NCBI GenBank assembly: GCA_021234155.1
Contig: JAJEKV010000034.1
Coordinates: forward strand, 1,428,001-1,492,000
From: Isoetes taiwanensis
Taxonomy: Eukaryota > Streptophyta > Lycopodiopsida > Isoetales > Isoetaceae
DNA: 64,000 nucleotides
Direction: 5' to 3'
The notes beneath the pieces were generated by a model that saw nothing but the letters and a program-made list of their open reading frames with translations, had not been told where the DNA came from and made no database searches. Shown in pieces: positions 7,767 to 64,000 of this stretch (the stretch's first letter is position 1; the number at the start of each line of letters is the position of its first letter). A program made the translations under genes and the position numbers.

Positions 7767-7769
7767 TTC

Positions 7770-34450: not shown

Positions 34451-34451
34451 C

Positions 34452-34946: not shown

Positions 34947-35384
34947 CGGATGATGTTTCCAGCACCTGTGACCATTGGAAAGGCGAGTCGTCATGGAATT
35001 CAGCGCCCTGATCGCCCCCGGGTGGTCATCTTCACAGTTGAGAGCGTGCCAGAGCGGGTGGCTATCCTGCGTCAGGGCCGGAAGTTGAAGGGGACGGCTC
35101 TGTACGTTGACCGGGACTTGACCCCAAAGACAAAGAAGAGACCCGGCGTGGCTGGCCAAAGTCGAGGACCTGGCCCTTGACATGGAGGGGCAGCGGGGCT
35201 GGTCCGGGGAAGGATGCAGGAATTCAGGCAGCCAAACAGGGATGCAGGCACTCCGGCCCCTCGAGTCCCCTCTGAGGGGGCCCCAGCGGCACAGGCATCC
35301 ACATCTTTCGCTCCCCCTGGGACCACCACTACCACCGGACCTGAAGTGGCGATGCATGCCACTAAATAGGGATCGTGCCTCAGC

Positions 35385-36250: not shown

Positions 36251-36353
36251 TGCGTCTGGACTATGATCATGCGGCGGTCTATGCGAGGATGCTTGAGCAT
36301 GAGCTGCCGGGAGTGCTTTGCAATTCCCCACACTTTAACAAATAGACGGCCCG

Positions 36354-38290: not shown

Positions 38291-38299
38291 CAAATTATC

Positions 38300-39380: not shown

Positions 39381-40853
39381 AACACAAAGTCAAAATCTAC
39401 AAATGGGCATGCAAAGTGCAGACCTATAATATCAATGTAAAGGTGATTAAAACCATTGATGACCCCAGTGCATACCTTCCCTACATTTTCTTTGAACATG
39501 AGGACCAAGATGGTTTGGAAGAAGGTGAAATTGACAGTGAAACTAACTTACTGATTTCTTGTGTAGAAGAAACAGATTGGCAAGAGGAAATTAAGAGGTA
39601 TCTAGAATTTGGTGAACAACCTCAAGGCTTGAGCACCAACCAACAGAGGAGGTTCTAGGAGAAATGCAGTAAATTTAGACTCATTAACAATGTTTTAAGC
39701 AGGGCTGACAAAGAAGGAGTATTGATGAGATGTGTTAGCAAGGAGGAAGCAAAATTGGTTATTGAAGCGTGTCATGATGGGATATGTGGGGGACATTATG
39801 CAGCAGATACTACAGCCAAGAAGATTTTAAGGTCTGGGTAACTGGCCTTCTTTGTTTAAAGATTGTTATAATATGATCAAAAGTTGCCACAAGTGTCAAA
39901 TATTTGGCAAAAGGATCCTGCAGCCAGCTCCCCTCACAGCTATTACATCCCCAGGACCATTCCAAGTCTGGGGTTTAGACTTTATTGGCCATATAGATCC
40001 ACCTTCATCTGCTCAACATGAATATGTGCTTGTTGCAACAGACTACTTCACAAAATGGGCTGAAGCAATGCCACTCAAGCAGGCTAATGCTATGACCACA
40101 GCTAGATTTTTGCATGAAAATATATGTGCCAGGTTTGGTATTCCTTTTAAGTTAATATCTGATAGAGGCAGCCAGTTCATCAATGAGGTCATTGCCACAT
40201 TGAAGATCAAACATGTTAAGAGTTCTGCTTATTATCCCCAAGGCAATGGCCAAGCTGAATCCACAAACAAAGTCCTCAAATCAATTCTGCAAAAGACCAT
40301 AAGCATGTCCAAAAGAGATTGGCATGTTAAACTTCATGATGCATTATGGGCTTATAGAACCACTATTAAAACAGCTACCAAGCATACACCTTTCAGTTTG
40401 GTTTATGGCATAGAATCCATTGTACCAATAGAGCTTGAGCTGCCATCCTTGAGATTAGCACACAAAATAAATATGGAAATGGAAGAAGCCCTCAAAGATA
40501 GGTTTGTCAGATTGATGCAACTAGAGGAACACAGGATTGAGGCTGAGAATGCAATACTATTGAAGAAAGGTAAGGATATAGCTGCCTTTAAAGCAGCTCA
40601 CAAATTGCAAGGTACTCTAAAGAATGGTGAGTTGGTGTTAAAATGGAACAAGGCAAGGGAAAAAGTGTCAAGCAAATTTGAAAATCTTTGGGAAGGGCCC
40701 TTTGAGGTGATTGGTGTAGCAGGCAAAGATTCCTATTGGCTAAGGTCACTGACTGATGGAAATGAGCTGCTTAATCCTATTAACATTTTGCATCTGAAAA
40801 GGTATTGGCAACAACATGTTGCCCTGTTTCTCTTTGAAAATCGTGCTCAGTAA
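39356..40853 (+). pseudogene. Gypsy element B pol: integrase
   Basis: From 39852 a 333-residue frame covers the integrase: CHKCQIFGK (end of the HHCC zinc module), WGLDFIG and SDRGSQF (two catalytic Asp) and NGQAESTNK (catalytic Glu), giving an intact DD-E set. It continues through a conserved C-terminal region with KFENLWEGPFEV. The part before it (39356-39850) holds the RNase H-integrase linker in another frame with a stop. The core type (no chromodomain seen) fits the Tat-like branch. The frame ends at 40853, 555 bp before the right terminal repeat. Confidence 0.85.
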
Positions 40854-41340
40854 GTAGGTTACAGTAGATTTTGAGTTTTAACTGATTTTTAATGCAGTAA
40901 GTAGGTTACAATAGTTTTTGAGTTTTAAGTGGTTAACTTTGTATTTGCTTTATCTATTTGATTTAGTGATTCACTAAGAGGTCTACAAGTTGCAGGTAGA
41001 TGCAGGAAATCTCAGGGGACAATATTACAATGCTAATGAATACTTGGTTCCATGCAGATGCACCAGCAAGTCCATCCTCATTCTTCACAAGTTGGCCATT
41101 TTCATTCAGACCTGCACTCTTTCACACCATTCAAAATTCCTAAGGTTGCCTATCACCTTCACATCAAAAGGGCAACTTAATGAGAGCTCAAGTGCTTCTA
41201 ATGATTCATTTGTCATGCAGGTGCATCAGCAATTCCATCTCCACCCTTCATTTGTTGACCATACCCACACAAACTTGCTCTATTTTTCATTTCCAAGTTC
41301 CTGAAGGTTGCCTATCACCTTTCCATACAAGGCAACTCAC
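40850..41340 (+). repeat. Repeated blocks between integrase and right LTR
   Basis: GTAAGTAGGTTACA(G/A)TAG…TTTTGAGTTTTAA is duplicated near 40853-40932. A longer unit with CAG(A/G)TGCA(C/T)CAGCAA and GGTTGCCTATCACCTT occurs twice near 41055-41175 and 41218-41335. Confidence 0.7.
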
Positions 41341-41408
41341 TTAAATGATTGCACTCGAGATCAGAAGAATTGGCAGATCAGTCTGTTTCCTTCTTTTTAG
41401 CATGATGA

Positions 41409-42640
41409 TGCCACAATTTGGCAGCATAGAAGAGCAGTTGACATTTCTCATTGATGGCTAACAATTTGCTGAAATATGTGCATATACCAAGTCTACATCC
41501 TCAAGACAATTCAAGCAACCTCAAGAACCAAGCAAGGACTCTCATTTGAAATATTGCAAAGAAGGGTTGAAGGTCAAAATGTAGTGCAAGGTCAATATAA
41601 GGAAGCTCCATGGCAAGATCAAGATTGGAAGACCCCCTAAGAAGTAAGATATTCATTCAAGTTCTTTGGCATGATTTATACCTTGAGGAACTCCTTGACT
41701 CCAATTGCCTCCTTTTACTCACCATTATTCAAATCCAAAATGGCTTAATCTATCTCCTAGTCAAGAACAACACACACTCCATCACACATCCACTATTTCC
41801 ATAAATTCCTATTGAAATTGGCATATTAATGGCCAATAGGGCACATTCTCTCTCTAAAAGTCAAAAGGGAGGGAGAAAAACACTCATTTCCATTACAAAG
41901 TCACTTGGGCAAAATTTGGTCTAAGCATTATTAAGACTTCGTGCCAAAAGTGCATATGATTATGCCATATCATCATCCACCTTACCAAAAATGCCACCTC
42001 ACCATACATGTCATCCACCATTTTGTTTTTCAAACACTCATTACAAAGTTGCTTGGGCAAATTTGGTCTAAGCATTATCAAGATCACATAACCAAAGTGC
42101 ATATAATTATGCCACATCATCATCCACCTCACCATACATGTCATCCACCATTTTGTTTTTCCATCTCACAAAAGTTGTTGACTAGGAGAAGAGATTTTTG
42201 CCATGTCACCATGCCATGTGCCAACTCACTCCCCATGTTTGCCACACTTACACCTTTTTCAAGACATATTATCCAAAAAAGCAAAGATTCCCCTTTGCCT
42301 AGAAGATTCTTTCATTGGTTGGGGAATCAAGGAATATTCTACATGGTTCAAAAAATTCTCCAAAAAAGCCTTGTTTTATGTCTCAAATGTCAAATCTTGA
42401 GATCCATGCCTTGATCAAAAAAATAAAAAAATGTTTCTAATCTACCCCCAAAGCCCAGACCTTTTTCCACCAACCCCCCCTCGCCACGTGGTATCTCCGG
42501 GCGTGTGGGGCGGCAACGGGCCGATACCCACGTGGAAATAGCACGTATATTTAATTATTAAAGTTGCATTTGTTTATATATAACCTGGGCTTCCCGAACA
42601 AAATTTGCTTGTGGGATATATAGTTCTTTGAAAATTTCTG
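41409..42640 (+). mobile_element. Right terminal repeat (3' LTR) of gypsy element B, right end unresolved
   Basis: The first 496 bp match 34452-34946 at about 99% by eye. The repeat likely continues: an internal ~145-bp tandem duplication (about 41893-42036 and 42040-42163, sharing GCTTGGGCAAATTTGGTCTA-like sequence and CACCATACATGTCATCCACC) follows. Then come two CACGTG G-boxes and a TATA box near 42574. Where the LTR ends is not clear because the left copy is truncated. Confidence 0.6.
42480..42584 (+). promoter_or_regulatory. G-box/TATA promoter
   Basis: Two CACGTG G-boxes (about 42485 and 42529) flank a GC-rich stretch, and TATATATAAC follows at about 42574. This is a typical plant promoter arrangement. 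It may be the U3 promoter of the element B LTR or a separate gene promoter. Confidence 0.5.
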
Positions 42641-47705: not shown

Positions 47706-47842
47706 TTCATATAATCATGCTCGCCAACCCGCCTCATATAAGCTCTTTGGATAATTTTGTTCCTCATTGATGAAGTCTGAAAATCTATTTGTTGGAATAT
47801 AGCAATAGGAACAACAATAGATTCAGTCTTTGCCACCGTGTG

Positions 47843-49387
47843 TGTGACGTTCCAGAATAATATACGGTATGAATACGTATATTATACTGACACGTCACTA
47901 GTACCGCGACCATAAGGGGTAATACCCTAGGGTACGACCCTGTGGACCATTATATTGCACATGTTAAGGCCACATGTGAATATAATACCCTTTTGCCATG
48001 TGGCAATGGCCCATTGCCCAAAAAGGGACCAGCCCTAAATTCGTGGGGATAAAGGGACATAAACCCTAAAAGGGAAACCTTTTCGGTTCCCAGCCCCTAT
48101 AGGTCGGATTGGAGCAGCATTGGACGCCCTTTCGCCTGAACAATAGCAGAGGAACCGGAATTGCTAGGTTGCAGCTCGATCCAAGACCAGCAGCCTCGAG
48201 ATCCAGCAGCATGGATGCCTTCAGAGGAGTGGGAGCCAGCCAAAAAGCGGGTTAGTGGTTGATCCGATAGTTAGATCCGAGTTTTCAGCTCTCATTCTAT
48301 AGGATTCGTATTCATTCTTAGCTATAGGCGACCCCTACAGCCTAAGAATAATAGACACTAACAAAGGAACCTAACCATGTATGATTAGGTAGATTAGAAT
48401 AGATGTATTCTATTATTTTCAGTTCTGTTGTGATGATGTTTTGACATTCTATGCGCCACTCTTGTGTATTGGGAAGGGGGGTAGAGACCCAGAGCCCAAG
48501 TAGTTGTATGATCATAGTTTTAGCCCATTAATTCCCAATTAATGCGGCCTGTGCATAAGAGCCCGCCTGGCTGTGGGTGGCGGAGCTAGACCGGCTGACA
48601 AGGAAGGGCTTGTCTGATCACAGTTGATCCCTCAGTGTGCGTGGCGGCAGTAGGGAACATTGTGGGCTAGGCCTAATACCCTGGCATTGCGTGAGGCCTG
48701 GGTATGGGCTCGACACCTCTTGGGTGATGCCTCATCTTCTAGGGGTTCAAGTCGTGTACGAGCAGTGGCTCTCTAGCTCGCCTGTGATTGGCATGAACCT
48801 TCTGGAGGGGAGTGATCTCCTCCTGCCTCATCGGGGAGGCTGGGGAGATGCAACCCGAAGAGTAGCCCCTTTGGCTCTGAACCGGCGCGAGGCTACGGTC
48901 AGGCTCCAATACTTTTCAGCCTATCTGCAAAGTATGCACAGGAGGGGCGGATGGAGTGGACTACCCAACGACCATGTTTCTATGCCGGCCAAATCCATTT
49001 GCCATGAATTCTGTCTGCATTGTTATCCGGAGAACCAAGCCGTCAGTCTTTCCCCAAGAGTCTGAGCCTGGGTAGGATTTCCCCATGTGATGTTGATGTA
49101 CTGATGTGTTGATGCAGCTACTATGATATGGTGGACCACCCTTCGAGGTGGGTATGTTATTGTTGATTGATGTCATGTGCTCATGTGTGTTTACGCTTCC
49201 GCAGCTAGATCGATCCCGAGGGAGACGGGATGAATGGCACGTCCATTCTTCCCCGTCGGGTTCTTGACTACCAACAAGGGCCCGATGTTAGGTGGACGGC
49301 CTCATGTCAGCGAGTAGATGCTGGGTTGAGGGATGATCTCCAGTTTGTATACGAGCGGGGCATCGTATAGGAGCTGGGGCCGTCACA
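47843..49387 (+). mobile_element. 5' LTR of the H3-carrying retrotransposon
   Basis: The segment begins TGTGACGTTCC and ends GGGGCCGTCACA, so its ends are TG…CA with matching inverted termini TGTGACG/CGTCACA. One base after the end is a perfect tRNA-iMet primer-binding site. At about 1545 bp the size suits a Ty3/gypsy LTR. No partner LTR lies within the window, so the 3' LTR is expected beyond 64000. A second possible start two bases earlier (TGTGTGACG) cannot be excluded. Confidence 0.8.
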
Positions 49388-49388
49388 A

Positions 49389-49400
49389 TGGTATCAGAGC
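49389..49400 (+). promoter_or_regulatory. tRNA-iMet primer-binding site
   Basis: TGGTATCAGAGC directly follows the LTR end with one spacer base. This fixes the orientation of the element as plus and makes the sequence to its right internal to the retrotransposon. Confidence 0.92.
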
Positions 49401-49652
49401 TATGATCTTGGCAGACCAAGATCGAGCACTGACCGTATTCCTATAGGAACTAACTAATCTAGACATTCAGTCTTGGAGATAAAACCCAAGCACAAACCTC
49501 GAATAATGGGAAAAAAAAAAATTCCCCAGGAATAGAGTCAGTAATTATCTAGAATTAGGATAATTAGAGAACATATTTAAGATGAAATAGATAGAAGAAA
49601 AGCCTCATAAGAAAGCCTAGTAAATTTTAGTCACTTTTTTGGCGGACACCTC
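49401..49652 (+). other. Internal leader of the H3-carrying element, left of the nested gypsy
   Basis: AT-rich leader. Its last bases (TTTAGTCACTTTTTTGGCGG then ACACCTC) match the sequence just before the palindromic repeat unit at 60711 (AAAAGTCATTTTTGGAGCAACACCTC). It is therefore the left edge of a repeat unit cut by the nested gypsy insertion. The split unit resumes at 60495. Confidence 0.75.
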
Positions 49653-50225
49653 TGTTTGGGGTCTGGGTTCGGGAACTCCTGGAAGACAGCCCTCTGTGAG
49701 GACCCGTGGATCTAACAGGAGAGTCCGGGGGACTATGTCACGCGGGATTTGCAAGAAGAGAAGAAGAAGAAGAAAACAGAAGAAATGAGAGAAAGATGAT
49801 AAGCTTCCTTGATATCAATGATGAACATACATGAGCTCTCGCAATAGAGAGAAAACTGAAAGGAGACAAGACTCAAAACTCATCTAAAAACTCATGTGCT
49901 AGCTCTACTCATATATATAGTACAATGGCCTTGGGCCCAATATAGACACTCGACCGATCTCGGTGCCGACTCGGAAGGAGGCCCGATTCTTGTGGAATGT
50001 TGGCGGTGCCTCTTGAAGTGCCTAGAATCTCGGCCGACGACGACGGTGGCGGACGGGTCGCCACTTGTCCGAGCGGCGCCTTTGTTGACTGGCCAAAGGC
50101 TTTGACTACGTGGTCTGCCGCTTGGTCTTCATGAGCCTTTGATGGCTGACCCGTGGTCGAGGATCCTTGAGCTTGACCTCGTCTGTCAGATGCATGAATA
50201 GTCCCACTGGAGGCACAGACTAACA
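49653..50225 (-). repeat. 3' LTR of the nested gypsy
   Basis: 573 bp, with many small indels relative to the right copy, including an AAGAAG-rich patch and TTCCTTGATATCAATGATGA. It is preceded on the element strand by the polypurine tract. Confidence 0.92.
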
Positions 50226-50237
50226 CTCCCCACCAAA
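50226..50237 (-). promoter_or_regulatory. Polypurine tract of the nested gypsy
   Basis: On the minus strand, GGTGGGGAG directly precedes the TGTTAGT start of the 3' LTR, the expected plus-strand primer position. Confidence 0.8.
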
Positions 50238-51669
50238 CGACACTCGAAAGTGAAGAAAAGGGAGGAAGTGTTTCTGAGGGCGGGAAGCCATCTGTTCGAA
50301 AGTGATCCTCACGAGTGAGGACTCCGCACCATTATGGTAATCGGCTAATGAGATCCCCCGTGTGTTTGAAGAGCGAGGAGTGTTTTTGGCCAAGGGCAGG
50401 GATCTGCATCAATAAGAAAGCGAGAGCGTACCATGTCTTCAAGGGCGCTGTGGGCGCCCGAAGAAATGTACCGACATTCCATGAGGAGACAGTCCGGAGG
50501 CCAAAGGCAATCCGACACCGGCATTCGGATTGCAAAGGAAAAATGGGACGCCGCCGATTTAAGGAGCTTAGCAAAATGCATTTGAGAGCAGCAAAATCCC
50601 CGCTTGAAGATGGATCAAGGATCGTGAGGTGGTGGCATTCTCGCAAGAAGGTGTCAAGACCATGAAGCGCGCATCCGTAGGGGCGTTTACCAACCACGCT
50701 CATTAGCAATGTAGATCCAATTCGTGGTGGTATCCAGAGTGGCACCTTCTTCCCAATGTGAACGGGCGAACAAAACGTGGATCCCACCGGAGATCCGGCC
50801 GAGATCCGGGTGGTGGTGTCCATCCGGCATGACCATCCATGACCTTGGTCCAAAAAGGAAGGCGCCAATCGAAGTCAGGAACCCGGGGCGTGGAGGTGCG
50901 CCCCGGGGAATCATAGGGAGAAGGAACCATGCCCGTGGGGGTGGGTTCTTGAGCCGGTCTCCCCGAATTGATCGACAAGATCCGGATCAAGATCCCGACA
51001 CCAACGATCCCAAAGAGAAGCAGAGAGTCGAGAGTTGACAGGAGGGCTATCCCATCCCGTGGGGACCGCCTTGCTATCCAACAGAGCTTGTAACCGATTG
51101 TAACCCAAGAGGTGTCTTTGCATATAAATTTGTGCATAGGGAAGATCCTCGGGATGTCCTAGATACTTCGATTTGTTGCGGCGCTTCCGCTTGCCGGAGA
51201 GATAAATGATTGGCAAGCTTCGGGCATGTACTCGATGAAGAGTTTAGGTCCGGCGGGATCCGCAAGATATGGATTGTTATCCCGAAGCACCCATTGCACA
51301 AAGGGGTCACCACGAAAAAGTCTGGCGTGGCCCATTTCCAAAGTGTTCCCGTATCACCCGGATAGAAATCATGAAATATGTAAGCCATGGGCTGAACCAC
51401 TCGAAGGTGATAAAGTCCGGATCGCAACACGGTGTATGAGATCAAAGACCACAAGGGCACAAAGACAACCCTTTGTCTTCAATGGAGAGTTCGGCCAAAT
51501 CCAAGAAAATCTCAGACCGCCGGGGAATATCCACGAGGCCATCTCCGCGATGCCGCCGAAAAGGAAGAGGTGGCGTCGAGCAACCACATAATCGTGATAG
51601 CAGGAGGGAACTGGAAAGTCAACAGGCATTCTGTTAAGAATGGCGGTATGGGCGTCAAGTTTTGCTTGA

Positions 51670-53223
51670 GCCTCATCGGCGAAGCCCGAATAGCTTGCGC
51701 AAACATTGTTCGAGATCACGGATCCGGTTGTCCCTTTCGAAAGCGGCGAAAAGGTGGATCGGGTCACGCACCCGTTTCTCGAAGTGTTGACCGGGAGGAG
51801 GATTTCCCGGAGTATTGAGACGAAGCACGGCAATCTCCGTCATCCAAGATCTTCGTTTTACGCACCTCCGTAGCTGATCTTGAAGAGAGGTGAGCTGAGA
51901 GGTCTGTGTAGAAAGCTGAGCCGTCAAGGAGGCGACTTGAGCGTCCCGTTCTGTAAGGTTTTGAACTTGAGTGCTGAAGTTTTCACAAAGTTCGGAGTAC
52001 AAGGCGTTGAGCTTAGCAATATCTGCATCCTTGGTACTCAGGAGAGCGGCTTTGGACTTGTTGTGCTCCAATAGAGTCTGAATTTCTGATTGAGCCGAGC
52101 CCATTGATCCGCAAGTTGGCTGACTTGAGCTTGTGCACTTTTGAGATCCGCATGAGCCCAGCCAAGAAGAGAGCTTCACGCTTGTCTTGAAGTTTGGCCT
52201 CCAAAGTTGCAACGTGGGCAGTTGCAGCTTGAAGGTCCTGGTGTACCGCATCAGAGGCTTCTAGTGCCCGGTGAACCCCGCTCATAAGAGCGTCTTGGGA
52301 TTCTTGTAACTTGAGAGCAGCAGCTTGAGCATCCTGGCCGATAATCGATACAACAACCCCGACGAGGGTGTTGTGGTGGTGGAGCCGGCTGTTGCCTGGT
52401 TTGTGATGTTTGGGAAAAATGGTGTGAACTGGATGGTGTAGCGGAGGAGGAGACAGTGACATGGGTGTGCGGACTTTGGACATGACCAGGGGAAGACGGG
52501 CGTGAAGTGCCAGCTTGGTGAGTTATTGGAAGGGAGCGCTGAGTGGAATTATGAGAATTTGGTGGTGTGGGAGGGAAGTAATGACGGATGAGGGCTTGAA
52601 AGTGGCCTCCCACAGAAACTTCAGAAATGGAAGTGGTACCCCTAAGGCGGTCCATTTCTTGGAGAAGACGATAGAACATCATTTGGGGCCAATCTATGTG
52701 GTGTTTGGAGTGTGTAGCAGTGAGGACCAGGTTATAGAAAGGCTTTATTGATATGGGTGTTCTTGATAGAATACCCCAAGGAACTTCGCCACGTAAATTT
52801 AACAAAGGTTTACGTGAGGCTTGTCGATATTGGTCGACGATGGACATTGGCATGATAAGCGGTGCACCAAACTCGCGGACATCGAGATCCCAGATAGCGC
52901 ACCATGATACAAAAGGGGTGTGCAAGGGAATATGAAATACCTCAAAATCAAATGTTAGAGTCAATGAAATGGTGGTGCCATCGACCACGCGGGTGTAGCC
53001 TTATGGGTGTTAACGATATTGGCGATGAACCGCTTCAACCGGGTCAGATTTGGAGCCGAAGTTCCATTTGAGAGAATTCGAAAAGCTTGTGGCGTTCAAA
53101 TGACTTCTTTTATTTGGGCCAACAAGGGCGCGCTACTAAAGTGGGCCAAGAAAGATACGATGCAAAAAGAGCCGGATCCTTGGGAGCAAAAGCTTGAAGT
53201 GTAGAAAATCTTGGGGCAGCCAT
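51670..53223 (-). pseudogene. Extra ORF of the nested gypsy downstream of integrase, unknown function
   Basis: Between integrase and the 3' LTR lies 3.7 kb of same-strand sequence. From an ATG at 53223 (MAAPRFSTLQAFAPKDPALF) it can be followed, with frameshifts, through 52251-52988 (FEVFHIPLHTPFVSWCAIWD, a Pro/Ser/His-rich tail). It then reaches 51673-52251, where a coiled coil is evident (DADIAKLNALYSEL, LTERDAQVASLTAQL then STQTSQLTSLQDQL). Tat-branch plant gypsy elements commonly carry an additional ORF; this one I cannot assign. It has no transmembrane pattern suggesting an envelope protein. Confidence 0.5.
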
Positions 53224-54175
53224 GGTAACGATTTGCCGAAACAAAGAGTGATTCCAAAGGCGGAGGACAAAAAGTCGAAAGCACCTGAGGACAAAGGCTA
53301 AGAACGAAAAGGTTTTTAGGGCTACAACCGAGGCGAAGAGGTATGAAGAGGGCGAAACTCGAACCGCTGATGGTGCCGTGTCAAAAGATGCCAAGAAGGG
53401 TATTGAGAGGCAAAATTTGGCTAAGTCCCAAAAAACGTAAGGGAGAAGCAATGAACGGTGAGGATGAGACGTGAAAGAAGGATCGGATGTGACAGGTGGC
53501 AAAGGACACATTAATGTTCGACGGGCGAAAAGAAGGAATGGCATTTAATGCTGGCAACTCGAAGTGGGATATCATTTAAAAGGAATGTGTCGAAGGTACC
53601 ATGGCTAGATATGCGGCGGAGAAAAGATTCTCATTTTAGAAACAAATTTTGCATTGCAAACACGCTGGCGATTTGTGTGATTGGTCCACGCCGACAAGGA
53701 GTTCCTCGCTTACTATATAAGACGAACCGGAGGAACGGCGCATCCGATGGCGCCAAGATGGTCCGCCGGCTTGAACGAAGATCGCACTATGCCCACGAAC
53801 CGCCGAGTGGGTTACATGCAAGATGAATTGTTCGGATCTTCGGGCGCCGCCACAACCGCGGGTATTCGAATGGACGGCTGGTGTGCCGGGATGGCTGAAC
53901 ATCCCGACCGAAGACCAACGGGATGGAGGTGGTTCTCGCACCTTCGCCGGGATCCCGAAGAACCTCTACCATCTCCCTCCGCGATACCTGCTCAAGCTCC
54001 AACCCGAGTAGAGGGTTTTTCCTCTTAGGACTTAGTAGATAGGGCCGAGCCCGCTTTTTGTATATAGGCGCGTGCCCATAGCGAAATAGCTGGGCGCCCA
54101 CATTTTGTAAAAAAATCTCCACTATAATATAATATACCGCCTTTCTAGTCACTTTCGTGGTCTTTGCATCTTGAA

Positions 54176-55250
54176 TCAGATCTGTTTGTTGATTTTCGCC
54201 GGCGCGTGTGATGAAATGTTTTGAGATCTAAAACCATTAACCAATGTAGGTAATGGAGTGCCATCTAACCACGTGAACAATTTGATAAGGGCCAAGCCAA
54301 CGAAACTTGAGTTTACCCGAAAAATTTTTGTACCTGAATCATAAAGAAGAACCAAATCGCCTTCTTTGAATGTTTTTGTCTTCGGGCGCTTGTCATGTAA
54401 AGATTTTTGCAAATCGTTGTCCATGGAGAACACGAATATAAGCATCCCGTCGAAGTTCATCCAACCGTTCTAATTGATAGACCCTTTCTTTGAGTGCGGC
54501 AGGGATTATGAGCGTGCTTGCCGGTTGAAAACCGGAGTGTTGGAAGGATGTATTCAAACGGCATGAGAGCTTCCTGACCATAAACCAATTTAAAAGGAGT
54601 GTGACCGGTAGCAATCTTGAAACAAGTATTGTAGGCCCAAAGAACAGTAGGAAGTTTTGTCTGCCAATCTGTGCGGGAAGCGTCACAAATTTTCTTGAGA
54701 ATGGTGACCAGAGTTTTGTTGGTGCTCTCTGCCAAACCATTGCCTTGAGGATAGTAAGGTGTGCTCTTGTGATGATGTATCAGGAGATAATCCGTCAGCT
54801 CCTTGATAGTATGATTGATGAAATGGACACCACTGTCCACCACCAGCTCAGGTGGGGCAGCCAATCGCGATAATTTGTTGATAGAGGACCCTAGCTGTGC
54901 TTGCGGCAGTGTTGTCTGGAAGTGCACAAGCTTCCGCCCATTTGGTGGCGTAGTCAGTGAGGACCAGAATGTAACGGGCACGGGTGTGCCGCGCAGGAGG
55001 ATCTATAGGTCCCACAAAGTCCATTCCCCATTTGCTGAAGGGAAGTGGCGTGGCGACCGGCGTCAAGGGAAGAGCCGCCACGGGCCGGGGCGTCCCACCA
55101 CCCGCTGGCAAGCGCCACACGCGGGCGTGGCGTATGAGCATCTTTGAAGAGCGTGGGCCAATAATACCCCCGAGAAGGATTTTTGCGTCTTTGTGGTGTC
55201 ACCATGAAAATGACCACCACCAAGCCCTTGATGAGCTTCTCGAACAATAT
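54176..55250 (-). pseudogene. Nested gypsy integrase
   Basis: Minus frames include KWGMDFVGPIDPP (first catalytic Asp) near 55000-55040, VVDSGVHFINHTIKELTDYL near 54785-54850 (second Asp), and YYPQGNGLAESTNKTLVTIL near 54715-54770 (Glu). LWAYNTCFKIATGHTPFKLV follows near 54590-54650, then FKEGDLVLLYDS near 54335-54370. The DD-E set is present but split by frameshifts. No chromodomain is seen at the end. Confidence 0.85.
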
Positions 55251-55582
55251 CTGAACTTCATGAGGTAGAACACGGATGGCCGGCTGATGGTGTCCTTACC
55301 CTTTTGTAGAGATGTCCTGCAACCATGGTGCGTCACCGGACCTCTGGAGAAATTGATGGCGACGGGATTGTCGCTTGGGCGAGAGAGCGTCTGGCCTTCC
55401 GGTGGAAGATCACCCGTGGAGGAGGTAATCCGCTGAAAATCATGGAACCAATGTGGTGTTGCCGTGACTAAAAAGAGCTGGAGCATCGTGAAAGGCATCC
55501 GAGACTCCGCCTGAGGGATCATCCGTGGATGCGTGAAAGATAATCCGAACGACATGAGATTTTGGCCGCCTTATGAACGATT

Positions 55583-57100
55583 TCAAAAGGAGCAAATTCT
55601 TGGAGAAGAAGGACCCAACGAAAGCAATGCGCCCGTGGGCGTGGACTTGTTGATCAAATAGAGGAGTGCTTGGTGGTCCACAAAGAACTTGATTTGACTG
55701 CCCAAAAGGTAATGACGGAAGCGTTGGACCTGAAAAATGAGACCCAAAGCTTCACGCCCGCGGCGAGAATAGTTGCGCCAGCCAGAATTGAGTTTTCTAC
55801 CGGGCGAAGCGATTTGGTTTGTCGGTGTCGCATCATATTCTTGAGAAAGAACAGCTCCAATAGCAAAACGCCAGACATCGACATGAACGTGAAAGGGCTT
55901 GTCCCATTGAGGAGGAACAAGAACCGTGCCTCGAGTAAGCAAAAGCTTCAAATTGTTGGAAGCAAAGATCCGCCGGGAATTCCAAGCCCGGGTAGATTCG
56001 GCCACCGTGAGTTTATGAATGGGATCTCGCAATGGCTGCTAGTCCCGGTATGAAGGTGGAGTAATAATTGACCTTACCCAGAAAGAGCGTGTCTCCTTGA
56101 TATTGGCTGGTGCTTGAGCCTTGAGCACACAACCCATTTTGGCGGGATCCGTGGTGATACCGCTTTGTCGGACAACATGGCCTAACGTAACACCGAGGGT
56201 GACGCAAAAGGTGCATTTCTCAGATTGAGACTAATGCCTACTCATCACATTTCGGAAGACGAGTTCCAATTTATCCAAATGGTCAGCCATGGAACTCAGA
56301 GGCGAGAAGTCATCTTGAAAAATTTGCAAGAAGGGATTTTTCTTCATGAAATCATGAAAACCGAGAGCATGATGCTGAAAACGTTGATGGAGAGTTTGAT
56401 AGTCAAAGGAACCACCTTGTAGGCAAAAGTGCCCACGGGGTGGTGAAGGTAGTCTTGAGTTGATCGTGATTCTTTGATTGAGATCTGATTGTAGCCGAAA
56501 AAACCATCCATGAAGGAGTACATCTCATGTCAATTTCCGCCTTGGCGATCACGGTAATTAGGGTTGAGCTCATCTTGTCGTTGCTACAGTCGCGGATGTA
56601 TCGATTTGGTAGGAATGGTGAGTTCCCCAAGCTTTTGTTGATTCCCGAAGATCTTTGTAACTCCGGCGAAAATGTGTTTGAATTTTTGAACGGCTTGACG
56701 GCCCTGCTACGATAAGGAGCCGGAAGATTTGGCAAAGAATGCGACAAGGTTGATTGTTGCCGACGTCCACAATCTCGACTTCGGAGTCCGAAGATGGGGT
56801 ATTACGTCGGTATCTGGACAATGTGTGCGCAGGAGGTTGGAGCATAACCGATCGCGGGTACTTTGCGTGGTGAAAAAAGAGGGTTGCTTTCGGTTTCATC
56901 CAGCAGAGGTTGCTTCATGACAAATAAGGTACATCAAACAGAGTTGCGGGAGGTTCAGCATCGAAAAGTGATCAACGTTGGATTCGGATTGCAAAGGAGC
57001 GGTAGGGGTCAAGCAAAGCAGCCACGGCACCTCGATCAAGAGTCATTTCTCCCCAAGGATCAAAGATATTCGGTAGGATGACAGAGGCGGAGACTTCGCA
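55583..57100 (-). pseudogene. Nested gypsy reverse transcriptase and RNase H
   Basis: RNase H is clear at 55590-56000: HVHVDVWRFAIGAVLSQEYD, LNSGWRNYSRRGREALGLIF, and FFVDHQALLYLIN. Upstream, QGDTLFLGKVNYYSTFIP (about 56050-56100) is the end of the connection domain, and KTTFTTPWALLP (about 56425-56460) is a damaged ITPWGTF motif. The palm region is badly degraded. Confidence 0.8.
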
Positions 57101-57174
57101 GGTGGAGCCCCGAACTTGATAAATATTCTGAGCTTCTTGAATCGGCCCGGTTCGAGAGAGAGGGGTTCGCATTG

Positions 57175-57600
57175 TCAACAGAAATGATCCCACTTTGTTT
57201 GCAAGTCCATGGTGGCATTGAGATGACCATCGTTGATGACTAACCGTCCGCGGGCCCAAGAATGGATACTCTTTGCTGGCGGAGAAAAGGTCTGTAGGCC
57301 CAAGATTTCATAGTCACCGGATCTTCGCCAGACTTTCCAAACTCCAAATTCCATGGGGAAGCGGAGATCACCAATGTTGATGTGAAGAATAGGTGTGGCG
57401 CCTTGAGGTCGCGTGATATGGCCATTAGCCAATTTGATGTCATATGGGGCACGAAAGAGTTGTGTGATGCCCATTTGTTTTGCGGAGTTTATCCGGTGAT
57501 GAGATTGACCGCGCTACCTCCATCTATTTGAACATGGTTGACTTGCTGATTACCCAACGTGGCATGGACCGTGGGTGTAGAGGTAGCCACGTACCCAACT
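57175..57600 (-). pseudogene. Nested gypsy protease
   Basis: Near 57490-57545 the minus strand reads VNHVQIDGGSAVNLIT, with DGGS in place of the usual DTG/DSG active site, a variant typical of Tat-like elements. The frame 57175-57474 continues with LFRAPYDIKLANGHI, FPMEFGVWKV and further protease-like sequence. Confidence 0.65.
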
Positions 57601-57879
57601 AAAACAGGTTGGGAGTGGTAACTGGTCCTGAGAGCGGGACGAGTTTTAAAATGGTTGCCAAGCTTAAAGGAATTTTGATCTTGGCTAGCTCCTCTTGGAG
57701 TTCTAGAGGCACATGAGAAAAAAAGATCTGGCTGGTGCTACCGGCGGAGTGCGTGGCGGGGAAGCGGTAAGAATCTTTGAGTAAGTCAACCTCGGCAGCA
57801 ATATTGGGATACGTCCCGAGGCGTGGAGGTTGAGATGTGGAAGGGGTATCTTGTCTTTGTTGAGCTCTAGTGGTGGCAT

Positions 57880-59200
57880 GAACATTTGCCAAGGTGCGCG
57901 CCTTCAAAGGCTTGCATGAGGTTCAAAATGCTTTGTCGAACTTTGGGCATGACATGTGGCATAAGCTTCTCCAAGTCGGTGCAAAGTGAACCTTTTTTTC
58001 GTCCTCATGAGGAATGGTGTCAACCGCAAAGGCAAGGTTCGTGCCATTCGAATAATGGTCAAGGGCGTGATGCCTTGGTCCGGCGTGAAACTAAACCAAC
58101 CCAATTTGACTACCGGACCGGAGGATTAAGTGCCCGAAAAATTTCCTCTTGTGCTTGTTGATCCAGCCGAGGTTGATTTGTTTGGAGCTGGTTGATAGCG
58201 TGATTGCCGAGGTGCTCTTGGTGGCTTCTTAAGAACTGGTCTCTCGCCTTGTTTGCCATTAGCAATCCGAGTTGGTAAGCCGTGAGGCGGACCGATGTGG
58301 TCCGATTTGTGCCGTGAAGCCGCACTGAACTTGTGGAAGTTGAGGACACGCCGTGGTGGTATGACCCCATTCTTGACAAAGGATAACACCGAGCTTTAGG
58401 AGGATCAAAAGGAGGACGTTGGTTGGATCCCCGTGGTTGCTCCCGCTGCTGATAGAGTTGCGTGGGTTGCACCCGCCGGTGGTGGTCACCGATAGTGCGA
58501 TTGTTGCCGAGGTGTGGTTTGTACTTGATAAACCATTTTGTTGCGAACGGTGTGGGATGAGTGCGAGTGCACTCTTCCGCGGCATGATTGCACATGTTGC
58601 ATCGCTTTTAATGAGGCGGCCATTGGTGGAGTTGCACTCATTTGCCAAATGGCCTTGGTATTTGCAAAGATGGCACCGTGATTTGATCGCTACTGTAGAT
58701 TAGCGTGTTGAGGCCGAAATACCGTGGAACCATGACAGTGGAATGAACGGGAGCTCTTGAAGAGCCACGCCTCGGAGGAAACATTGATCGAAAGGATTGA
58801 CAGTCGATATAGCCTCCCAAAGTCTTGGGACGCAGTGTATTCATCATGAGTCGAATAGCCGGAGGAAGTCCTGGAGAAACCGCACCAAAATCTGGCTCCT
58901 GGTGGGGTATTCCTTGAGCTTACTTAGCGTAATGTGAAGTCGATCCATAAAATCCCTGCATCTCAGCGGGCTCTTGTTGAAGTTCATTGAGTTGCTTGAG
59001 ATGAAGTTGATCATCATCCGTGGTTCCATAATGAGACGTAAAAGCGCTCGCATTTCGACCATCTTTTGTTTCCAATGGCTTTTGTTGGACATGAGCCATT
59101 GATGAGGAGAGCCAACACGCAGGTGGTGGAAAAAGATGTGGAATTTCAGTTGAGGTTGCGCATGACCATTTAGGACAGCTAGAGCCTCAAATTCTTCCAT
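57880..59200 (-). pseudogene. Nested gypsy gag
   Basis: A CX2CX4HX4C knuckle (CHLCKYQGHLANEC) is visible near 58640-58690, and a second damaged one (CQEWGHTTTAC) near 58350-58385. Upstream, 58844-59200 (FHIFFHHLRVGSPHQWLMS, CRDFMDRLHITLSKLKEY) fits the capsid region. Frames are broken several times. Confidence 0.65.
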
Positions 59201-59916
59201 GTGGGCCCCAGCACTTTGGTCTAACGGTTTGCCTTCGTGTTGCCAAAGGTGGGATAAGTCCGTTTAGAGTCCAAAGGTAGATGTGAAAGTGCTTGGCGGA
59301 CAGAACGAAGATAGTGAGGATATTGAGGTTGAGTTGGATGTGGCATGGTGCCCGGCTGACCCCGATGAAGGGTGACCGTGGTTGAGAAACCGAAGCAGCG
59401 GGAGCATTGGTTTTGAGATCCGTAAGGTTGTAAAAACGAAGGGCGCGGGGAAAACGAGGGAAAGGATATTCCCGGTAGGCAGGAGACGCGGTAGATAGCC
59501 GCGTCTACCCCGGCGGAGATGATGGTTGTGAAGGAAGAGGCGATGGCCCAAGAATGATGGATGTAGGCATGTTCAAAGGGTATGAAAGTACGGTTGAGAA
59601 GGTTGAGCCCCATAAGGCCCCCGATAGTGATGAGGGACCGAGGTTGTGAGCAATGTTTGCACGCTTTGGGGGGAACCGGGACGAGACAGACACGACATCA
59701 GGGTGGGCGCCGACCGAGCCCTAGACCGAAGATGGCCTCCTCCCTATGTCATAAGCAGATCCATACATGTCGCTGGTCAGCTTCCCGACGCCGATGTCGC
59801 CTGCAAGCGAGAGGCCGCTCGAGAAAGGAGTTCTTCCGGGCGTGAAGTTACTAATACACATGGCGGCGTATTTAAGAAAGTAGGATGGAATCGTGACCCG
59901 CAGCCGGGCGAAGCAA

Positions 59917-60494
59917 TGTTTGGCGCCCGATTCGAACTCGAAGACAGCCCCTCTGGAGGACCCGTGGATCTAACAGAGAGTCCGGGGGACTATGTCACGG
60001 GATTTGCAAGAAGAGAAGAAGAAGAAGAAAAACAGAAGAAATGAGAGAAAGATGATAAGCTTCCTTGATATCAATGATGAACATACATGAGCTCTCGCAA
60101 GAGAGAAAACCGAAAGGAGACAAGACTCAAAACTCATCTAAAAAAACTCATGTGCTAGCTCTACTCATATATAGTACAATGGCCTTGGGCCCAATATAGA
60201 CACTGACCGATCTCGGTGCCGACTCTGGAAGGAGGCCTGATTTGCGGTGAATGTTGGCGGTGCCTCTTGAAGTGCCTAGAATTCACCTGACGCCGACGCT
60301 GGCGGTGACGGGTCGCCACTTGTCCGAGCGGGCGCTTGTTGTTGACGGGCCAAAGGCTTTGACCAGCGGCGGGTCCGCCGCTTGGTCTTCATGGAGCCTT
60401 TGATGGCTGACCCGTGGCTGACTGAGGATCCTTGAGCTTGACCTGGTCTGTCGTATGCATGAATAGTCCTGTACCAGGAGGCACAGGACTAACA
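59917..60494 (-). repeat. 5' LTR of the nested gypsy
   Basis: 578 bp copy matching the left LTR. On the element strand it starts TGTTAGTCCTGTGCC and ends CCAAACA. The sequence next to it (TTGCTTCGCCCGG…) is not a standard iMet primer site, so the primer tRNA is uncertain. Confidence 0.92.
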
Positions 60495-60564
60495 ACCTCC
60501 AAGGATGCGCCAGGAGCATGTTAGGTCCATACCTAATTGGTCTCCCGCGCACGCTTAGAGGGGT
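60495..60564 (+). repeat. Palindromic repeat unit 0 (split by the nested gypsy)
   Basis: This is the right part of a unit whose left edge, ending in ACACCTC, is at about 49646-49652. Conserved parts are ACCTCCAAG, GTTAGGTCC, and CGCGCACGCTTAGAGGGGT. Confidence 0.85.
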
Positions 60565-60710
60565 CATCCCATATGAACCCTAGAACTCGGCCTTAGGAGC
60601 CCCAGATTGTAAAAGAAAAGATGAAATCCCATTTAAAAAACTCGAATTAGCTAGAGTTGTATGCTAAAACACAGAAAAAAAAAAATTAAGTAAAAGTCAT
60701 TTTTGGAGCA

Positions 60711-60767
60711 ACACCTCTAAGGGAGGTCATGACCTAACACCCTTCTCGCGCATGCTTAGAGGGGTCC
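60711..60767 (+). repeat. Palindromic repeat unit 1 (shortened)
   Basis: ACACCTCTAAGGG…GACCTAACACCCTT…GCTTAGAGGGGT. The left half of the inner palindrome is deleted, leaving a new GGTCATGACC palindrome. Confidence 0.9.
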
Positions 60768-60906
60768 CCTAAAAGTGACCTCGGAATTTGATCAAAACTT
60801 ACTCAAATTGTAAAAGTAATGATAGAATCTTGCTTAGAATGCTTAAATTAGTGGAAAAGGCATGTTAAATTGTGTAAATTGGATAAGTTTAGAGCAGAAA
60901 GGGACA

Positions 60907-60978
60907 ACACCTCTAAGGGTGCCCCAGGGCATAGTTAGGTCCGGACCTAACACCCTTCTCGCGCACGCTTAGAGGGGT
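60907..60978 (+). repeat. Palindromic repeat unit 2 (best-preserved palindrome)
   Basis: 72 bp. It contains a perfect 18-bp palindrome GTTAGGTCCGGACCTAAC, flanked by AAGGGTG…CACCCTT arms and by CCTCTAAG…CTTAGAGG arms. The left arm could pair with either right arm, so two alternative folds are possible. Confidence 0.92.
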
Positions 60979-61059
60979 TTGAGGGAAAATAGTCGAAGAA
61001 GACCTCACTTTGATCCAAGGTGGGGAGAATTTCGTCAGCAAACCAACAAAATAACTTAT

Positions 61060-61094
61060 TGGGCCAAACCCTAAAAATTAAACCCTATAAAATA
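61060..61094 (+). promoter_or_regulatory. Site II/telo-box/TATA promoter of the H3-fusion gene
   Basis: TGGGCC (61060-61065, a site II core) directly abuts AAACCCTAA (61066-61074, telo-box), and TATAAAATA follows at 61086. This pairing is characteristic of plant genes expressed in dividing cells, such as ribosomal protein and replication genes. The TATA box lies about 110 bp before the chosen ATG. Confidence 0.7.
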
Positions 61095-61196: not shown

Positions 61197-62381
61197 ATGG
61201 CTAGAACGAAGCAGACCGCTCGTAAGGTAAACAAAGATGATAAGCCCAGCGCCCAAGTCCTCGCCGCCGAGCAGAAACTCAAAGATGCCGAGAAGAAATT
61301 GAAGGCCGACATGGAGAGGCGACCTAGGTACTACCGAAATTTAGAGAAGAGGCGGAAGAAAGAAGAAAAGGCCAAGAGGAAAGAAGAGAAGGCAAAGAGG
61401 AAAGAGGAAAAGGCCAAGAGGAAGGAGGAGAAGGCAAGAAAGAGAGCAGAGAAAGAAGCCGCAGACGCCGAAGAAGACCAATGGCGCGAGCAAAGGACGA
61501 AGAGCAGGGAAGAACCCGACAGGAAGGGCAAAAGGGTGATGACAGACGAGCCCCCGCCTAAGAAGAGGAGGAGCTTGGTCGGCGTCGTCATCGGCGAACG
61601 ACCCGAAGGCGACCAACCTCCATCCTCGTCTGAAGATTCCGGTGATATGCAGAACTTCTTGGAGGAAGTACTTCTAGGAACTAGAGAATCCTCGCAGAAG
61701 CAGCAGAACCCTCATCCCCAGACAGATGAACCCCAAGAAGAGGATCAAACCCCAGCCCAGGACCCGTCAGAAACACGAGTTGAACTACCCCCACCGTTAC
61801 CTCCACCGTTTCCAGAATGGCAAGAGGCGAGGAAGCTAGATGCAGACAAAGCAGCCGCAAAGAAGGCGAACAAGACGGCCAGGGATTCGTACACCTTAGG
61901 GCCCGAGAGGAGGTACAAGAAAGAGTTAGCAGACTATACAGTATACAAGAAGATGCACACCGAGTACAGTGCCTATTACGAGGCGCACAAGGTAAAATAT
62001 ATTGAAGGAGGGCGGCCAACACGTGAGATATTCCAGCTGGAGCCTCCACCAGAACTTCCGGACCCCCCGAAGAAACCCATGAAAAGATCCCAAGACTCCC
62101 TCTTTGCGAGAGCCCTACGAGAAATCCGGCACTTCCAACGGAGTTACGGATTTCTGATTCCCAGAGCTGCATTCCAGAGATTCGTCCGGGAGATTTTATG
62201 GGACTTCGACCCCAACAAGCGAGTAACTAACGATATGTTACTCGCTTTACAAGAAGCAACAGAGATGGAGGTCGTGCAACACTTCGAAGATTCACTGGCA
62301 TGCACGCTCCATGCAAAAAGGGTCACGCTTCAACCAAAGGACATGAGACTGGCCAAATACATCAAGAGGACAGATAAATAG
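61197..62381 (+). CDS. Chimeric histone H3-like protein inside an LTR retrotransposon
   Basis: A 394-residue intronless ORF. Residues 1-10 (MARTKQTARK) are identical to the histone H3 tail, including Lys4 and Lys9. Residues 306-394 align without gaps to the H3 core, about 43 of 89 identical by hand comparison with canonical H3 from memory: αN ALREIRHFQ, α1 FQRFVREI, α2 ALQEATEM, HAKRVTLQPKD, and α3. The H3-H3' four-helix contacts (Cys369, His372, Arg375, Asp382, Leu385) are kept. Between them lie a KRKEEKA heptad helix (about 52-87), KGKRV…PPKKRR nuclear-localisation-like sequence (110-125), an acidic Pro-rich stretch and PPPLPPPFP (198-206). I chose the ATG at 61197 (context CAAACAATGGCT) because it starts the H3 tail and lies downstream of the TATA; an in-frame ATG at 61020 precedes the promoter. 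Inferred roles are nucleosome incorporation or binding, or titration of H3-tail readers. CENH3 is less likely because loop 1 has canonical H3 length and HAKRVT is retained. Confidence 0.9.
   Translation: MARTKQTARKVNKDDKPSAQVLAAEQKLKDAEKKLKADMERRPRYYRNLEKRRKKEEKAKRKEEKAKRKEEKAKRKEEKARKRAEKEAADAEEDQWREQRTKSREEPDRKGKRVMTDEPPPKKRRSLVGVVIGERPEGDQPPSSSEDSGDMQNFLEEVLLGTRESSQKQQNPHPQTDEPQEEDQTPAQDPSETRVELPPPLPPPFPEWQEARKLDADKAAAKKANKTARDSYTLGPERRYKKELADYTVYKKMHTEYSAYYEAHKVKYIEGGRPTREIFQLEPPPELPDPPKKPMKRSQDSLFARALREIRHFQRSYGFLIPRAAFQRFVREILWDFDPNKRVTNDMLLALQEATEMEVVQHFEDSLACTLHAKRVTLQPKDMRLAKYIKRTDK
61367..61450 (+). repeat. 21-bp in-frame coding repeat (KRKEEKA)n
   Basis: Four consecutive 21-bp units of the type AAGGCCAAGAGGAAAGAAGA encode charged heptads, predicting a single alpha helix or coiled coil between the H3 tail and the rest of the protein. 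Confidence 0.9.
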
Positions 62382-62530
62382 GATAGAAGCTACTTTTTGT
62401 AACTAACAGGCTTATATGTAAAGTGTGAAAATTTTGAATAATAAGGATATATACTTGTTTAAAACGTGCACTGAATTAAGTATAGTAGTAGTTAAGGAGC
62501 AAATGTGAAATTTTGGATAAAAAGAGGCCG
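62382..62530 (+). other. 3' region of the H3-fusion gene
   Basis: AT-rich sequence with AATAATAAGG near 62437, a possible polyadenylation signal, before palindromic unit 3. Confidence 0.4.
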
Positions 62531-62602
62531 ACACCTCTAAGGGTGCGCCAGGGCATAGTTAGGTCTGGACCTAACACCCTCCTCGCGCACGCTTAGAGGG
62601 GT
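62531..62602 (+). repeat. Palindromic repeat unit 3
   Basis: 72 bp, closely matching unit 2. The inner palindrome has one change (GTTAGGTCTGGACCTAAC), and the outer GGTGCGC…GCGCAC pairing is better preserved than in unit 2. Confidence 0.92.
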
Positions 62603-62725
62603 CCAGCCAACTGGACCCTTGATCAACCAAATAAATAAGCAAAGAAACTTGCACTTCAGAAGAAAATAGGTAGGAATTCACGTCTTTAAACTTGTTTTTG
62701 GCATCCATTAGACATAAAAAGACCA

Positions 62726-62797
62726 ACACCTCCAAGGGTGCGTCAGAGGCCACTTAGTTCCCAACCTAACACCCTCCTCGCGCACGCTTAGAGGGGT
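62726..62797 (+). repeat. Palindromic repeat unit 4
   Basis: 72 bp. The outer arms (ACACCTCCAAGGGTGCG…CGCGCACGCTTAGAGGGGT) are kept while the inner palindrome has decayed. It starts 195 bp after unit 3. Confidence 0.9.
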
Positions 62798-62948
62798 CCA
62801 ACCTTTCAAGGTCCATAACTTGTGCTAGACATATCCAAATCGGCCAAAATTTGTTGCATTAGAACCCTAAAATTGTATAGAATCCAATTATAGCTCCAAA
62901 TTAACCTAGAAACGTCAAACTTCATATCAAAATGCCAAAAGTTTTAGG

Positions 62949-62986
62949 AACCCTAAAAATTTTAGGGTACAAGATCCCTATAAATA
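62949..62986 (+). promoter_or_regulatory. Telo-box/TATA promoter of the downstream ORF
   Basis: AACCCTAA (62949-62956) faces an inverted TTAGGGT (62962-62968), and TATAAATA follows at 62979. Another AACCCTAA lies near 62862. The layout parallels the H3-fusion promoter. Confidence 0.65.
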
Positions 62987-63097: not shown

Positions 63098-64000
63098 ATG
63101 GCTACATCATCCTTCATCAGCTGGTACAGCGCCTCTCCTCACATTGCTCAGGTAGATGTTAACCTAGTATTCCAACTTTTTTAGAAAGAATTTGACTTGT
63201 CGGCAACCCTGAATTCAAACCCATCCTACCAACACGTTCTGCAAGAATTCCAAGAGAAAGTAGCTCCTAGCTTGCAAGAAATACCCCCATGCATAGGGTA
63301 CTTTGTACCAAAGACTGTATTGCAAACATCCCTTAACCATATACCCAACATTGCAAAATTGCTGCAGAATAGAACCGAGCGCCTACCCAACTACATGACC
63401 CTGAGCAGTAACAGAAAGAGATTTTTCTCTTACAATACAGCCTTAGCACTATTTTTATTCTATAGGGCCCAAACCGTGGTAGGTGAACCATCAATCCAGC
63501 CACTTGAGATCACATCCTTGGACTCAGCAGCAGACGAACAACTACTGCTTGAGTACGAGCAGTCCATAGCACAATCATCCGAAGAAAGTGAGGACTCAGA
63601 AGAGGAAAGCGAAGAAGAAATGGAAGTGGACCCAGAAGAAGAACGCCGAGAAGCAGAACAAGATGTTAGCCGTTTCGAAGCTGATAGGAGCACACCGAGG
63701 ATAGCACAACCAATCGGGCTGGGAATAACAAGTCTAGCACCGATCATAGTCGAAGGGCAGGAATATTTGTTCCTAAACGATATTAAAAACCTTCCCGAAT
63801 GCAGGGACAGAGGCTATCGTGTCGACGAACTCCTTCACCTTCTACGGCAGCAGCCGGACTTAGAGGATTTCATCGACCAAGAAACAGATGACTTTCCAGT
63901 TCAAGTAAGGGAAGCAGCCACATACACAGGACACAACATGTCAGATATCGAAGCCTATAGCACTATCAGAGGCATGATGACGGAAGAACAACTCCCTACA
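63098..64000 (+). CDS. Downstream acidic ORF, unknown, one in-frame TAG, runs off the window
   Basis: From ATG 63098, about 112 bp after the TATA box, the frame reads MATSSFISWYSASPHIAQVD then …VFQLF and meets TAG at 63182-63184. It then stays open for 272 codons to the window end. The TAG could be a mutation, a readthrough site, or lie in a spliced segment: GTAGATG…TTTTTTAG (63152-63184) has GT-AG ends and keeps the frame, but 33 nt is shorter than plant introns normally are. The protein has a hydrophobic/basic N-terminal half (NRKRFFSYNTALALFLFYRA) and a strongly acidic tract near 63578-63650 (SEESEDSEEESEEEMEVDPE). I recognise no domain. It could be the element's gag or a second accessory protein. 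The acidic tract is of the kind found in histone-binding proteins, but that link is speculative. Confidence 0.6.

Follow-up and report, generated by a model that had tools for sequence, protein, structure and literature searches.

A Ty3 chromovirus lineage of Isoetes taiwanensis carries a histone H3-type gene that is kept under purifying selection

The window, by which we mean the whole stretch of 64,000 nucleotides of Isoetes taiwanensis DNA that was analysed, contains an H3-like accessory gene (ORF-A) which sits inside a Ty3 chromovirus. The order of this element is LTR, primer binding site (PBS), leader, ORF-A, a second accessory gene (ORF-B) and gag-pol, with further LTRs past the end of the window, and we regard this anatomy as practically certain. 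The features within the window are as follows.

47838..47842, no strand: target-site duplication (TSD) GTGTG, left copy; its right-hand partner lies past the window end, from L010:8184, after the outermost LTR
47843..49387, plus strand: 5' LTR of the H3-bearing chromovirus, TGTGACG...CGTCACA, 1,545 bp
49388..49652, plus strand: leader part 1, up to the nested insertion, with 97% and 90% copies in L010 and L011
49389..49400, plus strand: PBS TGGTATCAGAGC, starting one base past the LTR end
49653..60494, minus strand: later nested Ty3 LTR retrotransposon with its two LTRs at 49653-50225 and 59917-60494, which interrupts hairpin repeat r1
60495..60566, plus strand: hairpin repeat r1, with its 5' end at 49640-49652
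60708..60767, plus strand: hairpin repeat r2
60904..60980, plus strand: hairpin repeat r3
61086..61091, plus strand: TATA-like box about 110 bp 5' of the ORF-A ATG, in a stretch kept among copies; putative promoter
61197..62381, plus strand: ORF-A, H3-like accessory gene, 394 aa
61197..61226, plus strand: MARTKQTARK codons (H3 tail start), dN/dS 0.029 (n=24 copies)
62109..62378, plus strand: histone H3 fold, residues 305-394, dN/dS 0.089 (n=24 copies)
62528..62604, plus strand: hairpin repeat r4
62723..62799, plus strand: hairpin repeat r5
62979..62984, plus strand: TATA-like box 5' of ORF-B; putative promoter
63098..64000, plus strand: ORF-B, second accessory gene, running on to L009:1618, with one in-frame stop near the start in the window copy

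The PBS, TGGTATCAGAGC, is presumably of the iMet type, and with the nested insert removed the ORF-A ATG lies 961 bp past it. Hairpin repeats of 60-78 nt, spaced by about 200 bp within each group, stand 5' of both ORF-A and ORF-B, and matching repeats were seen in three other elements of the same family (family 1) fetched with long flanks; a core-motif search found the hairpin core motif in none of three loci of the second family described below, and tRNA and Rfam scans gave no match. Beyond the window follow the rest of ORF-B (its protein has about 500 residues), gag and the start of protease, a LINE-like insertion, RT and two more LTRs (L010:3550-5124 and 6619-8183), which are 93% and 96% identical to the 5' LTR. 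The insertion within gag-pol, on the minus strand at about L009:3436-6832, appears on reading to be a LINE-type element with RT and endonuclease frames. Since GTGTG borders the outer sides of the first and the last LTR, the window element seems to be a single insertion that contains an additional internal LTR. Its three LTRs (5', middle and outer), with a TSD only on the outside, are perhaps those of a compound insertion which originated in recombination between copies.

The leader is split by a separate, later Ty3 element, bordered by its own TSD ACCTC at 49648-49652 and 60495-60499. Rejoining the flanks of this nested element rebuilds one of the five similar hairpin repeats at the empty-site junction, thus positions 49652 and 60500 were formerly adjacent. 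The initial annotation had placed the H3 gene 3' of an LTR and a PBS; this is correct for the true LTR and PBS about 12 kb to the left, but not for the nearest LTR (59917-60494), which belongs to the nested minus-strand element. The two LTRs of the nested element differ by a K2P of 0.0855, more than the 5' and middle LTRs of the older element around it (0.060), which contradicts the order of nesting unless rates, conversion or assembly errors differ. For this reason, and because this copy was noticed for its intactness, an estimate of the neutral decay of ORF-A since the nested insertion (P 3e-8) was set aside. At 34449-41904 the window holds another, plus-strand Ty3 element whose LTRs are 99% identical and which is therefore probably a recent insertion.

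The reading frame of ORF-A is unbroken over 394 codons, and its protein starts with MARTKQTARK and ends in a gapless H3 fold, as had been reported. In comparison to plant H3.1 the fold shows 43 identities in 89 positions, with no gaps, and spans H3 47-135 to the H3 C-terminus. The proposed profile search returned PF00125 at residues 292-389 (Pfam, E 4.9e-21), and H3 chains from the PDB align to residues 305-390 (E about 9e-20). The residues C110, H113, R116, D123 and L126 (H3 numbering), which we take to be those of the H3-H3' interface, were all found in the window copy, in agreement with the claim that this interface is conserved. An insert of about 295 residues had also been claimed; it is indeed large, and its size is about 280-295 residues, according to the chosen start of the fold. 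The H3 1-40 tail is incomplete, as only residues 1-9 and a KKP near 36-38 are kept and the remainder is replaced. The insert consists of a Lys/Glu-rich part, an NLS-like PPPKKRR, an acidic Pro-rich part and a Tyr-rich part, and residues 11-125 are lysine-rich with an NLS-like run. Two AlphaFold models reached a mean pLDDT of 52.9 and 59.2 and are usable only for helix positions that agree with H3; a low-confidence model places a helix at residues 19-105, and Foldseek with the second, poor model gave no histone among 25 weak matches. The likeness to H3 is not due to chance, since the protein has matches at no fewer than 105 places in the genome and is under strong purifying selection.

These matches come from a search of the genome assembly (1,658,258,908 bases in 1,110 contigs), in which the ORF-A protein gave at least 109 matches at at least 105 places, the window included (four matches are further fragments of copies already counted); these are minimum numbers, as 105 of 40,882 first-look candidates were scored. 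The copies are dispersed in the genome, and 29 of the 109 listed matches are free of stops from residue 1 to residue 393 or 394. For closer study we took 24 family 1 copies, namely the window copy, the seven other best-scoring ones (of which two have one stop), C1018 and 15 others from the stop-free matches, a choice by H3 score and mostly by absence of stops which biases intactness upward. An exact PBS was found 941-990 bp 5' of the ORF-A ATG in 16 of the 24 copies and a degenerate one in two more, with no pattern match in six, and the 3' end of an LTR lies upstream of ORF-A in 22 copies (blastn; the exceptions are L006 and L027). Paired LTRs of the same orientation with TG...CA ends were found in the window element, C980, C1018 and the second-family element C974, and all four elements examined have perfect TSDs (GTGTG, GAATG, GGGAT and CCGGC, respectively). 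In C1035, which is outside this set, a 5' LTR was found, and the 10 kb of sequence taken there holds a single downstream LTR match, in inverted orientation. Gag, protease, RT, RNase H and integrase follow on the 3' side in chromovirus order (Pfam), with frames broken in some copies.

Since the first LTR met to the left of ORF-A is part of a nested element on the opposite strand, the gene could be supposed to be an ordinary host H3 gene beside, and not inside, a retrotransposon. However, the empty-site junction rebuilds a hairpin repeat, an LTR and a PBS stand at a near-fixed distance in other copies, the TSDs enclose the gene in all four elements examined, and the copies are dispersed, so that this explanation is refuted. 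The capture by an LTR retrotransposon that the initial annotation had proposed is thus borne out; it would have fallen if all other copies had been ordinary host loci outside LTR elements, and further copies lie inside such elements of the same genome.

The integrase carries a chromodomain at its C-terminus (PF00385; E 3.2e-8 in family 1 and 2e-8 in family 2, above the cut-off). Among the cage aromatics, which we take to map onto the chromodomains of these elements as Y24, W45 and Y48, only the W is retained, as judged by eye. The three cage aromatics are the criterion for a Group I chromodomain with an H3K9me cage in PMC3350952, and with the first and third missing, H3K9me reading is not expected by that criterion. 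The idea that the chromodomain reads the K9 of the element's own histone is weakened by the missing cage residues.

A query with canonical H3 gave at least 150 matches from 9,022 candidates. Fifteen of these are host H3 genes (96-98%), and the other 135 are folds of 71-86% identity, many of which sit in long frames. They revealed a second, related chromovirus family with an H3-fold protein at the same position in the element, 71-86% identical to canonical plant H3. In three loci with flanks, this family 2 protein has 409-412 aa, starts with MAITK and contains a complete H3 from about residue 36 to its end; an exact PBS lies 745-749 bp 5' of the ATG in two of the three. The C974 element of this family has an LTR pair of 92.8% identity, the TSD CCGGC and a chromodomain, its gag-pol is 48-69% identical to that of family 1, and its ORF-B2 is related to family 1 ORF-B (blastp 5e-9, 25% identity over 261 columns). 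Three further loci (L048, L049 and L050) are members of the second group and are 42-47% identical to L032 over the aligned part; they probably represent a third H3-bearing family. With H4 as the query, 69 candidates yielded 43 matches, of which 16 are full-length genes and 27 are fragments, and the longest frame has at most 176 codons; H4 is not amplified (69 first-look candidates vs 9,022 for H3).

The suggested comparison of dN/dS among copies gave a pooled value of 0.154 for ORF-A (24 copies, 276 pairs) at a dS of 0.66. By part of the protein, the values are 0.029 for residues 1-10, 0.103 for 11-85, 0.245 for 86-200, 0.169 for 201-290 and 0.089 for the fold. In the four elements studied in most detail dN/dS was 0.141 for ORF-A, 0.218 for ORF-B, 0.496 for gag, 0.282 for protease-RT and 0.090 for RNaseH-integrase, the last value resting almost wholly on C980 and C1035 (the window contributes 36 codons and C1018 none). 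Stops were seen in ORF-B of two of these elements, in gag of three and in protease-RT of one, with none in ORF-A; as the four were picked by ORF-A, their stop counts are no test of its intactness. The choice of high-scoring and mostly stop-free copies favours intactness, and does not by itself produce a low dN/dS at a dS of 0.66. Four-fold sites differ by 0.317 on average vs 0.167 in the leader (190 pairs, 20 of the 24 copies), thus the leader changes at a lower rate than silent sites do and cannot serve as a neutral yardstick. For family 2, the 18 copies were chosen for long frames and none has an inner stop; dN/dS is 0.171 overall and 0.050 in the fold, with dS above 0.9.

Pieces of host genes are captured by plant LTR elements (PMC7264820), and ORF-A could likewise be a passenger, a captured host gene of no use to the element. 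This is largely refuted by the dN/dS of 0.154 at a synonymous divergence of 0.66 in the 24 copies and by the same position of the gene in two diverged families, the second with dS above 0.9, and we consider it very improbable. It can be concluded that a Ty3 chromovirus lineage carries an H3-type core histone gene first after the PBS, followed by a second accessory gene and gag-pol, and that this gene multiplied along with the element and stayed under purifying selection. The ORF-A protein is very probably functional for the element.

MARTKQTARK is exact in 19 of the 24 family 1 copies, with K9 in all 24 and K4 in 23, within the most constrained part of the protein. In family 2, ARTKQTARK is not kept, and lysine 5, the counterpart of H3 K4, is found in 16 of 18 copies (the frame start was unmatched in the other two). 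C110, H113, R116, L126 and I130 are present in 24/24 family 1 copies and D123 in 23/24, all six are present in 18/18 family 2 copies, and R83, K115 and T118 were found in the 42 copies of both families without exception. Outside the fold no homology between the families was found (hhalign probability 3.3%), therefore the tail cannot be the function common to both, and since family 2 lacks ARTKQTARK, a common function must rest on the fold (perhaps also on ORF-B). Some H3 features are missing from family 1, where R63 is replaced by P in 23/24 copies, L82 by K in 24/24 and L100 by V in 20/24, so a normal nucleosome is not certain for it.

In a tree with 7 of 24 family 1 and 10 of 18 family 2 copies (L031 was left out), family 2 forms one group beside canonical H3 (87/83), and the family 1 fold, on a very long branch, is nearest to plant CENH3 (82/79), with provisional reference sequences as the CENH3 rows and neither placement starred. 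The placement was no clearer in an earlier tree that included a single family 1 sequence. These positions, together with the lack of homology in the non-fold parts, would fit two separate captures, of a CENH3-like gene by family 1 and of an H3.3-like gene by family 2, in place of one ancestral capture. However, the AU test does not reject a single clade for the two families (p 0.31), the branch is very long and its CENH3 neighbours are provisional sequences, family 1 lacks the CENH3 loop-1 insertion in an alignment with such provisional rows and starts with MARTKQTARK, and gene order and ORF-B are common to both families. We therefore think two captures rather unlikely.

A protein database search, whose length range left out ordinary-length H3 and CENH3, gave 617 matches to the ORF-A protein, and 118 of the 120 listed cover the fold only (22% of the query); the other two cover 40% and 53%, one of them being a double H3. 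Neither ORF-A residues 86-300 nor the first 272 open codons of ORF-B had a relative in that database, and viral contigs gave no match to ORF-A, ORF-B, the hairpin or the H3 alignment. No support was found for a hidden H4 fold in ORF-B.

We favour, at a probability of roughly 0.6, the explanation that a captured H3 gene is kept as a working accessory gene with a nucleosome-type mechanism. A host H3 gene would have been captured and put to use by the element, and would be expressed, possibly from the TATA-like boxes that stand before both accessory genes. Its product could pair with host H4, dimerise via the kept H3-H3' interface and enter nucleosomes or (H3-H4)2 tetramers, either on the DNA of the element or on its pre-integration DNA product. 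In the altered tail most of H3 10-35 is replaced, with K4 and K9 kept in family 1 and usually K4 alone in family 2; such a tail may change the marks placed or read and so ease transcription or integration. The function suggested by the initial annotation, in which the protein would enter or mimic nucleosomes, for instance to escape silencing or to direct integration, is plausible as a proposal. Taken on its own, the nucleosome mechanism is held tentatively and at somewhat below even odds. With R63 and L82 no longer present, family 1 is more likely to form an altered nucleosome or to have a tetramer-only role. A bolder form, which seems doubtful to us, would have the element's own H3 variants replace host H3 on element chromatin or incoming cDNA. 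Their tails would escape the usual marking by host silencing, and the element would thereby set its own chromatin state; on this view, centromeric (CENH3) chromatin might even be the source of family 1 or its site of action.

The position of ORF-A at the head of the gene order, between the PBS and gag, its lysine-rich residues 11-125 with an NLS-like run and the element's own chromodomain would also suit a particle or integration factor. The H3-fold protein would then be the nucleic-acid-binding part of the virus-like particle or pre-integration complex, or a tether of integrase to host nucleosomes, with no lasting deposition in chromatin. However, simple binding of nucleic acid would not demand so strict a conservation of the H3-H3' residues and of several nucleosomal arginines, and a chromodomain without the first and third cage aromatics is not expected to read H3K9me by the criterion in PMC3350952. 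This alternative is thus judged unlikely, and a captured H3 gene working in a nucleosome-type manner is preferred.

The initial annotation knew of no described retrotransposon with a histone gene, and accordingly we found no report of a retrotransposon-encoded core histone in the open-licence PMC literature. CENH3/CENP-A and plant H3 variants, compared on provisional sequences, share an H3 fold and a diverged tail with the element proteins; however, they are host genes, and family 1 differs from CENH3 in its MARTKQTARK and in having no loop-1 insertion. Histones of their own are used by other selfish elements, namely certain DNA viruses, with core histones in marseillevirus and medusavirus and H4 in bracovirus. 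To our knowledge, none of these histone-bearing viruses is an LTR retrotransposon, and none has an H3 split by a 280-residue insert. A close parallel is found in orchids (Phalaenopsis), whose Ty3/Gypsy elements carry an AlkB m6A demethylase ORF (PMC9289625): these too are plant Ty3 retrotransposons with a fixed host-type gene, for epitranscriptomic control, as an extra ORF, but theirs is an RNA demethylase and that of the Isoetes elements a histone. That study screened 121 angiosperm genomes and reported 15 uncommon domains, and "histone" occurs twice in its main text, neither time for a domain of an element. The chromoviruses of non-seed plants (PMC3350952) are likewise Ty3 elements with a chromodomain at the integrase C-terminus; they read chromatin, and no histone gene is named for them in the part of that paper drawn on here, whereas the Isoetes elements also encode a core histone. 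Extra ORFs are also found in plant LTR retrotransposons (PMC7264820), where they are conserved in many copies, as in ours, and thought to encode accessory proteins, but these lie mostly between pol and the 3' LTR, and the word "histone" is absent from the main text of that article.

If the ORF-A protein enters nucleosomes, a transposon would alter host chromatin by supplying the packaging itself, and not an enzyme or a reader. Core histones are among the most conserved host proteins. The two families offer natural, selection-tested H3 variants, with an insert of about 280 residues after K9 or with the tail replaced, in which the need for each part of the H3 tail is testable. A retrotransposon with its own H3, kept in many copies, suggests a home-made histone for handling host chromatin.
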